From Micromonospora aurantiaca ATCC 27029 (GTDB lineage: Bacteria > Actinomycetota > Actinomycetes > Mycobacteriales > Micromonosporaceae): a DNA stretch of 64,000 bases. The DNA lies in contig NC_014391.1 of NCBI RefSeq assembly GCF_000145235.1, positions 6,033,501 to 6,097,500 on the forward strand, in the 5' to 3' direction. Numbering within the stretch: the first letter of the stretch is position 1; every line of letters starts with the position of its first letter. The notes beneath the pieces were generated by a model, which worked only from the letters and a program-made list of their open reading frames with translations, did not search any database and was not told the DNA's origin. Positions 29,125 to 29,674 of the stretch are shown in pieces. The translations under genes and the position numbers were made by a program.

Positions 29125-29154
29125 TTGCGCGCCCGCCCGGGTGGTCGGCATACT
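29125..29154 (+). promoter_or_regulatory. Candidate promoter of the chorismate mutase leader transcript
   Basis: TTGCGC (29125-29130), an 18-base spacer and CATACT (29149-29154). The expected transcription start falls at about 29161-29162, exactly on the GTG of the aromatic leader peptide, implying leaderless translation. Confidence 0.5.
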
Positions 29155-29161
29155 CGACGAC

Positions 29162-29227
29162 GTGTTCGATCAGCGCTTCTACTTTTACTACGGCACCGGG
29201 AGTCCGGCAGCCGTGGGTCGCGCCTGA
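29162..29227 (+). CDS. Phe/Tyr-rich leader peptide (probable attenuator)
   Basis: A 21-codon reading frame GTG...TGA encoding M-FDQRFYFYYG-TGSPAAVGRA. Six of the first ten residues are aromatic and positions 6-10 are five consecutive Phe/Tyr codons. It is followed 18 bases after its stop by a strong intrinsic terminator and then the chorismate mutase gene, whose product feeds Phe and Tyr synthesis. This is the layout of ribosome-mediated attenuation: stalling at aromatic codons when charged tRNA is scarce would favour read-through. No Shine-Dalgarno is visible; the promoter position suggests leaderless initiation. An in-frame GTG at 29141 is a less likely alternative. Confidence 0.65.
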   Translation: MFDQRFYFYYGTGSPAAVGRA

Positions 29228-29244
29228 TCACAGACCTACGAAAC

Positions 29245-29273
29245 GCCCCGGGCTCCCCGAGCCCGGGGCTTTT
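29245..29273 (+). terminator. Attenuator terminator before chorismate mutase
   Basis: GCCCCGGGCT (29245-29254) and AGCCCGGGGC (29260-29269) form a perfect 10-bp stem around CCCCG, followed by TTTT. It lies between the aromatic leader peptide and the mutase gene rather than after any other plus-strand gene. An upstream segment CCGGGAGTCC (29196-29205) is partly complementary to GGCTCCCCG in the stem and could be the antiterminator strand. Confidence 0.75.
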
Positions 29274-29320
29274 CCGTCCCGGGATCCGGGTACCGGGCCC
29301 GAGCCCCGAGAGGGACGACG

Positions 29321-29674
29321 ATGATGACTGACGTGGTGGAGTCCAGCGGCAGCCTGGCGCGGCACGACCGGCCGGCCGGCGGCGACCCGACCGGCGCCGC
29401 GGCGGCCCGGACCGGCACCGACGACGCGGCGGCGGCGGAACGGATCGGTGAGATCCGGCGGCGGATCGACGAGATCGACCGCACCCTCATCGCGCTCTGG
29501 CAGGAGCGGGCAGCGCTCTCCCAGGAGGTCGGCGCGACCCGGATGGCGTCCGGCGGCACCCGGCTGGTGCTCTCCCGCGAGCGGGAGATCCTGGAGCGGT
29601 TCCGGTCCGAACTCGGCGCCGACGGCACCCAGCTTGCGCTCCTGCTGCTGCGCGCCGGCCGCGGCCCGCTGTGA
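29321..29674 (+). CDS. Chorismate mutase (AroQ class)
   Basis: A 117-residue all-helical AroQ-type enzyme converting chorismate to prephenate, the branch point to Phe and Tyr. After a ~38-residue Ala/Gly-rich N-terminus, IGEIRRRIDEIDRTLIALWQERAALSQEVGATRMASGGTRLVLSREREILERF shows the conserved Arg (RRRIDEID), the Lys/Arg positions and ERE. An AGAGGGA ribosome binding site precedes ATG 29321; ATG 29324 is also possible. It is preceded by a leader peptide and terminator, suggesting control by Phe/Tyr supply. Length is short for fused forms, so it is the monofunctional type. Confidence 0.88.
   Translation: MMTDVVESSGSLARHDRPAGGDPTGAAAARTGTDDAAAAERIGEIRRRIDEIDRTLIALWQERAALSQEVGATRMASGGTRLVLSREREILERFRSELGADGTQLALLLLRAGRGPL

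Follow-up and report, generated by a model that had tools for sequence, protein, structure and literature searches.

Chorismate mutase stands at the branch point to Phe and Tyr. The closest described actinobacterial leader is that of Corynebacterium glutamicum aroR, which Neshat reportedly described in 2014 as leaderless. AroR contains the run Phe-Tyr-Phe and lies before aroF, where it acts by attenuation through ribosome stalling (PMC4046766; PMC11802643). Limitation for Phe raises transcription of AroR-aroF, and limitation for Tyr does not (PMC11802643). Attenuation at Escherichia coli pheL-pheA is by charged tRNA-Phe (PMC11802643). Reannotation of Streptomyces lividans gave eight leader peptides (including trpL, leuL, ilvL, alaL, thrL and metL), mostly leaderless and some with an intrinsic terminator, none of them a Phe/Tyr leader and none before chorismate mutase (PMC8079986). 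A 2005 survey of actinobacteria described conserved structures only for Trp, Cys, Leu and ileS T-boxes, and none for Phe/Tyr (PMC1262725). The chorismate mutase of Mycobacterium tuberculosis is controlled via a feedback-inhibited complex with DAHP synthase, and the same is assumed in related actinobacteria (PMC4281200).

We analysed a 64,000-nucleotide stretch of DNA from Micromonospora aurantiaca ATCC 27029 (the window, to which all positions below refer; the genome holding it is complete, 7.0 Mb). An earlier note on this DNA had proposed a Phe/Tyr attenuator before a chorismate mutase gene and knew of no Phe/Tyr leader described for an actinobacterial chorismate mutase. The literature searched, in which subscription papers are thinly covered, yielded no published leader of that kind; the idea is nevertheless less isolated than the note supposed, C. 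glutamicum AroR before aroF providing a published precedent from actinobacteria (PMC4046766; PMC11802643). The leader in the window is very probably a classical ribosome-mediated transcription attenuator of the chorismate mutase gene that would sense charged tRNA-Phe/Tyr, and it probably lets the cell make chorismate mutase only when short of Phe or Tyr.

Layout of the leader and its target gene

The elements of the locus outside the RNA helices are as follows.

29125–29130, + strand: −35-like hexamer TTGCGC, from the sequence, 18 nt upstream of CATACT
29149–29154, + strand: −10-like box CATACT, from the sequence, ending 7 nt before the GTG
29162–29227, + strand: leader open reading frame with GTG start, VFDQRFYFYYGTGSPAAVGRA and TGA stop, probably leaderless, kept in congeners and in 20 other genera of the family
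29177–29191, + strand: regulatory codons F6 Y7 F8 Y9 Y10 (TTC TAC TTT TAC TAC), with F/Y swaps in relatives (FFYY, YYFYY, YFFY)
29308–29315, + strand: Shine-Dalgarno-like GAGAGGGA before the chorismate mutase start, from the sequence
29321–29674, + strand: gene for a monofunctional chorismate mutase of the AroQ-delta type (117 aa), the regulated gene

The product of 29321–29674 matches Pfam CM_2 (1.9e-10) and the NCBIfam chorismate mutase NF005894 (5e-31), and is homologous to M. tuberculosis Rv0948c (best PDB match 2qbv, Rv0948c, 7.9e-19), in agreement with the assignment in the earlier note. It contains the conserved Arg-Gly dyad, which the literature gives as invariant for AroQ-delta enzymes (PMC4281200). 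The gene upstream of the leader encodes a UvrD/PcrA helicase on the opposite strand (divergent), so a terminator on the + strand can act only on a transcript begun in the leader region, so that an attenuator is the reading that suggests itself before relatives are compared at all.

The leader has 21 codons (GTG at 29162–29164, TGA at 29225–29227), with aromatic codons at position 2 (F) and at positions 6–10 (F-Y-F-Y-Y). Both this frame and the CATACT ending 7 bases before its GTG are present as the earlier note had read them; TTGCGC, 18 nt farther upstream, was absent from that note. TTGCGC/TTGCG is kept in nearly all congeneric loci compared. A scan for the sigma-70 consensus gave no match. 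Among 159 distinct leaders, CATACT is present in 126 and a Shine-Dalgarno-like sequence precedes the leader start in 2. The distance from the −10 box to the start is 6–7 nt in 158 of the 159, a set collected with the spacing limited to 5–8 nt and an aromatic run required, so that only the concentration of the spacing within 5–8 nt is informative. The spacing and the rarity of Shine-Dalgarno-like sequences fit a leaderless leader, in which transcription would start at or beside the GTG and the leader would be translated.

The middle Phe codon of the run (29183–29185) is TTT and is almost fixed in relatives; none of the 43 Phe codons of four nearby genes is TTT. Slower decoding of this codon may perhaps make the sensing sharper. 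The region that separates the terminator from the chorismate mutase start contains CCCGGGATCCGG and, after it, a stretch rich in CCGGG (29277–29300), both nearly invariant within the genus.

Alternative RNA helices

Four leader segments, numbered 1 to 4, form helices 1:2, 2:3 and 3:4. The features concerned are given below.

29188–29199, + strand: segment 1, CTACGGC-A-CCGG, overlapping the last Tyr codons; forms helix 1:2 when the whole leader is folded, with covariation between families
29198–29219, + strand: segment 2, GGGAGTCCGG (29198–29207) and CGTGGGTC (29212–29219), the 5′ strand of the antiterminator
29233–29257, + strand: segment 3, GACCTACG (29233–29240) and CCGGGCTCCC (29248–29257), the 3′ strand of the antiterminator, from covariation and a swap test
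29245–29273, + strand: intrinsic terminator, stem 29245–29255/29259–29269 followed by TTTT, from the fold, a terminator scan and covariation

The hairpin and its T-tract lie where the earlier note had placed them, but the G+C-rich stem is 11 bp rather than 10, with a 3-nt loop (29256–29258) and TTTT at 29270–29273; at this place the terminator scan returned two nested terminator-like sites, where 0.1 would be expected. The full leader (29163–29275) folds at −58 kcal/mol, compared with −38.6 ± 3.9 for shuffles (z = −5.0), into helix 1:2 (29188–29199 with 29204–29216) and the terminator. The 1:2 hairpin overlaps the regulatory codons, the last Tyr codons lying inside segment 1. With segments 1 and 4 omitted, the RNA folds instead into helix 2:3, GGGAGUCCGG/CCGGGCUCCC over CGUGGGUC/GACCUACG, at −33.8 kcal/mol. 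The earlier note had suggested that 29196–29205 could pair with the left part of the terminator stem; such a pairing exists but is better placed at 29198–29207 with 29248–29257 (10 bp, one G-U), over an inner hairpin, 29212–29219/29233–29240. Rfam gave no match at the gathering threshold in the window and only chance-level matches in the leader and its relatives, and no T-box or riboswitch family.

Covariation of the helices was examined on an alignment of 23 leaders from several families (A6). These leaders offer comparable alternatives: a hairpin of the 1:2 type, a terminator and, when segments 1 and 4 are omitted, an antiterminator. With relatedness uncorrected, helix 2:3 has 15 double-change cells compared with 5.1 ± 1.7 in shuffled alignments, helix 1:2 has 10 compared with 3.7 ± 1.5, and helix 3:4 has 10 compared with 5.3 ± 2.0. 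Helix 2:3 is 86% paired on A6, compared with 58–62% after a shift of one column. If segments 2 and 3 are exchanged among families, the pairing weakens from a mean of −16.7 kcal/mol for a family's own segments to −13.2 kcal/mol (a cost of 3.5 kcal/mol, permutation fraction 0.0011). In one related family, segments 2 and 3 have changed jointly to GGACTCCGG/CCGGAGTCC, spoiling the terminator stem; a joint change at the terminator's expense argues that helix 2:3 is itself selected. Within the genus there are no double changes in the antiterminator, which is too conserved there for covariation to be informative. The antiterminator of Blastococcus, of some Streptomyces-like leaders and of one DAHP synthase leader does not exceed shuffles in strength. 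The locus combines clustered aromatic codons, an intrinsic terminator before the gene and a covarying, mutually exclusive antiterminator, and the downstream gene encodes a pathway enzyme for the amino acids that would be sensed. At the level of sequence, the comparison establishes the leader codons, the three alternative helices with their covariation, the terminator and the target gene.

In the scheme that we infer, from start site and leader translation to stalling, kinetics and the amino acids sensed, transcription would begin at or next to the GTG, and a ribosome would load on the 5′ end and translate the leader while RNA polymerase makes the rest. When Phe-tRNA or Tyr-tRNA is scarce, the ribosome would stall at codons 6–9 and cover segment 1, and the freed segment 2 would pair with segment 3 (10 bp plus the 8-bp hairpin inside it) ahead of the synthesis of segment 4; the terminator would then fail and chorismate mutase would be transcribed. 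When both are plentiful, the ribosome would run into segment 2 or leave, helices 1:2 and 3:4 would pair, and transcription would stop at TTTT.

Folding with the ribosome placed at successive positions gave a probability of the antiterminator, before segment 4 exists, of 0.99 with the A site on codons 6–8, 0.79 at Y9, 0.43 at Y10 and 0 from G11 to R20, which puts the predicted switch where the aromatic run ends. At equilibrium with segment 4 present, the terminator prevails for every ribosome position and every leader tested, so read-through must be kinetic. When the calculation was varied so that RNA on the upstream side of the ribosome could pair, helix 2:3 still formed with the ribosome halted at the last or the stop codon (P = 0.95 at the stop), and the replete state would therefore depend on transit or release.

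Conservation, related leaders and rival explanations

A covariance model of the leader RNA (R1) matches 199 of 201 Micromonosporaceae genomes and 43 of 44 genera (the two genomes without a match are 69% and 77% complete), and conservation on this scale excludes chance. The leader is present in all of the first 30 congeneric loci, 6–7 nt after CATACT, and in 39 of 40 more distant ones; at the exception, where the match to the mutase starts well inside the protein, the DNA taken resembles coding sequence. Among the family's other genera the beginning of the peptide is variable and the aromatic run shifts within F/Y (SFFYY, AYFYY, HYFFY, RFYFY, KFYFFY), always ending in Tyr-Gly, after which the RNA is almost fixed and the peptide C-terminus, YGTGSPAAVGRA, is nearly invariant. 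Across the 159 distinct leaders, Phe and Tyr interchange at positions −4 and −3. The earlier note had named alignment of the upstream region across Micromonosporaceae as the check on its proposal; in that alignment the run of aromatic codons persists, as do the terminator and the pairing of the antiterminator, and family conservation together with compensatory changes in the three alternative helices supports the Phe/Tyr attenuator reading that it put forward.

The peptide after Tyr-Gly varies by group (GSPAAVGRA, GPSGCHGRAA, GYRxAVPVV, GDGPxSVR). A difference of one base puts some Streptomyces-like leaders out of frame after YG with the RNA still alignable, and one leader (f34) stops within segment 2. 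Peptides that differ or are frame-shifted over alignable RNA indicate conservation at the RNA level downstream of the aromatic run; the run itself is conserved as codons.

To describe the spread of the leader we used R1 and a broader RNA model (R2) and counted only leaders read individually, because raw match tallies overstate the spread, ordinary terminators scoring too. On reading, the best class-level R1 matches proved to be genuine leaders of chorismate mutase genes in two families from the same order (one locus is from Blastococcus) and in another family. A genus called Streptomyces-like for its genome size (7–10 Mb) and protein sequence has the leaders FVFTYG and FLFTYG before chorismate mutase. 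R2 extends the leader to Mycobacterium, a label that rests on identity of the mutase to Rv0948c (up to 93%, the best in the genus sample, among which M. tuberculosis itself did not occur), with VLSWQRRFFYGYRSAVPVGI and similar leaders before the Rv0948c-like gene; the mycobacterial leaders have a poor U-tract after the hairpin. Across lineages F, Y and W swap for one another and helices 1:2, 2:3 and 3:4 are retained, and wherever a leader-type match was read with an identifiable downstream gene, that gene encoded only chorismate mutase or DAHP synthase. The chorismate mutase genes of Nocardia farcinica and Tsukamurella have no leader of this type.

Several further observations were made among the loci read. 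Thirteen loci of another actinobacterial family have leaders with Phe, Trp and Tyr codons (AFWFWYG, FWRFYG) before DAHP synthase genes, as though the pathway's first step responded to all three aromatics. Outside the class, R2 led to three loci from other families of the phylum that have DAHP synthase genes with aromatic leaders such as MKRYFWFFGTSGSPEADAS. Many Mycobacterium species (42 loci) have an RFFYGYRxAVPVV leader before the Rv0948c-like chorismate mutase, and in two of these loci the leader is decaying. Nineteen weak class-level R1/R2 matches were set aside, with no aromatic leader before an aromatic gene and the look of ordinary terminators. Second copies of the leader were sought in the same genome and none was found, the other R2 matches read there being ordinary terminators.

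We consider it reasonably probable that these leaders form an old family of aromatic attenuators running through Actinomycetota, with one architecture (aromatic codons, Tyr-Gly in helix 1:2) placed on AroQ-delta chorismate mutase in Micromonosporaceae, the Streptomyces-like genus, Blastococcus and Mycobacterium and, with added Trp codons, on DAHP synthase elsewhere, and with losses in certain lineages, Nocardia and Tsukamurella among them.

The rival that deserves most weight is an identically built attenuator responding to Phe-tRNA only, in which Tyr codons serve mainly to form segment 1. We hold this possible but doubtful. AroR of C. glutamicum, although its run is Phe-Tyr-Phe, responds to Phe but not to Tyr (PMC11802643), the run is Phe-rich in many relatives, its last Tyr codon belongs to helix 1:2, and the almost fixed TTT is a Phe codon unused in the four nearby genes; extra Tyr codons outside segment 1 are nevertheless common (Y7; the YYFYY leaders), and the interchange of Phe and Tyr at −4 and −3 also speaks against this rival.

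The two other readings dispense with aromatic amino acids altogether. That the leader is a general sensor of slowed translation, like whiB7, or an arrest peptide, with the ribosome stalled by the peptide or by an antibiotic, is very unlikely, even though mycobacterial whiB7 likewise has an upstream open reading frame and a regulatory terminator (PMC13236596) and the C-terminus is nearly invariant within the family. Other groups keep the RNA and not the peptide, and the identified targets are aromatic-pathway genes only; since families do not share the C-terminus, which is frame-shifted after YG in some Streptomyces-like leaders and cut short in segment 2 in f34, nascent-peptide arrest as the main mechanism was rejected. 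Slighter still is the chance of a constitutive partial terminator without regulation, where the small leader would merely load ribosomes or make a small protein. Leader genes are indeed proposed to raise downstream translation by reinitiation (PMC4833913), but such a reading leaves unexplained both the aromatic codons beside segment 1 and the covariation of a helix 2:3 that is exclusive of both other helices.

Comparison with described attenuators

What appears to be new is the target gene and the breadth, the attenuation mechanism proposed here for Phe/Tyr being of a known kind. The likeness to C. glutamicum aroR, compared by description, lies in an actinobacterial leader with Phe/Tyr codons before an aromatic-pathway gene. 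The targets differ, AroR preceding a DAHP synthase gene (aroF) and the leader of the window a chorismate mutase gene, and leaders related to that of the window precede both. An old family of this kind would add a transcriptional layer to the complex of chorismate mutase with DAHP synthase, for which feedback control has been described on the enzyme level. If the attenuator reading is right, a transcriptional control of chorismate mutase has been missed in antibiotic-producing and mycobacterial lineages, and the leader offers a ready Phe/Tyr-responsive switch.

The S. lividans leader peptides share with the leader of the window a short open reading frame before amino-acid genes (PMC8079986), and the trp attenuators of Streptomyces and Corynebacterium share classical attenuation with conserved complementary triples, their regulatory codons being Trp codons (PMC1262725). 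With E. coli pheL-pheA, the leader has in common the Phe codons and a chorismate mutase in the target, which in E. coli is the bifunctional chorismate mutase-prephenate dehydratase and here a monofunctional AroQ-delta enzyme; the leader of the window also has Tyr codons and is probably leaderless, and no sequence relation between the two is expected.
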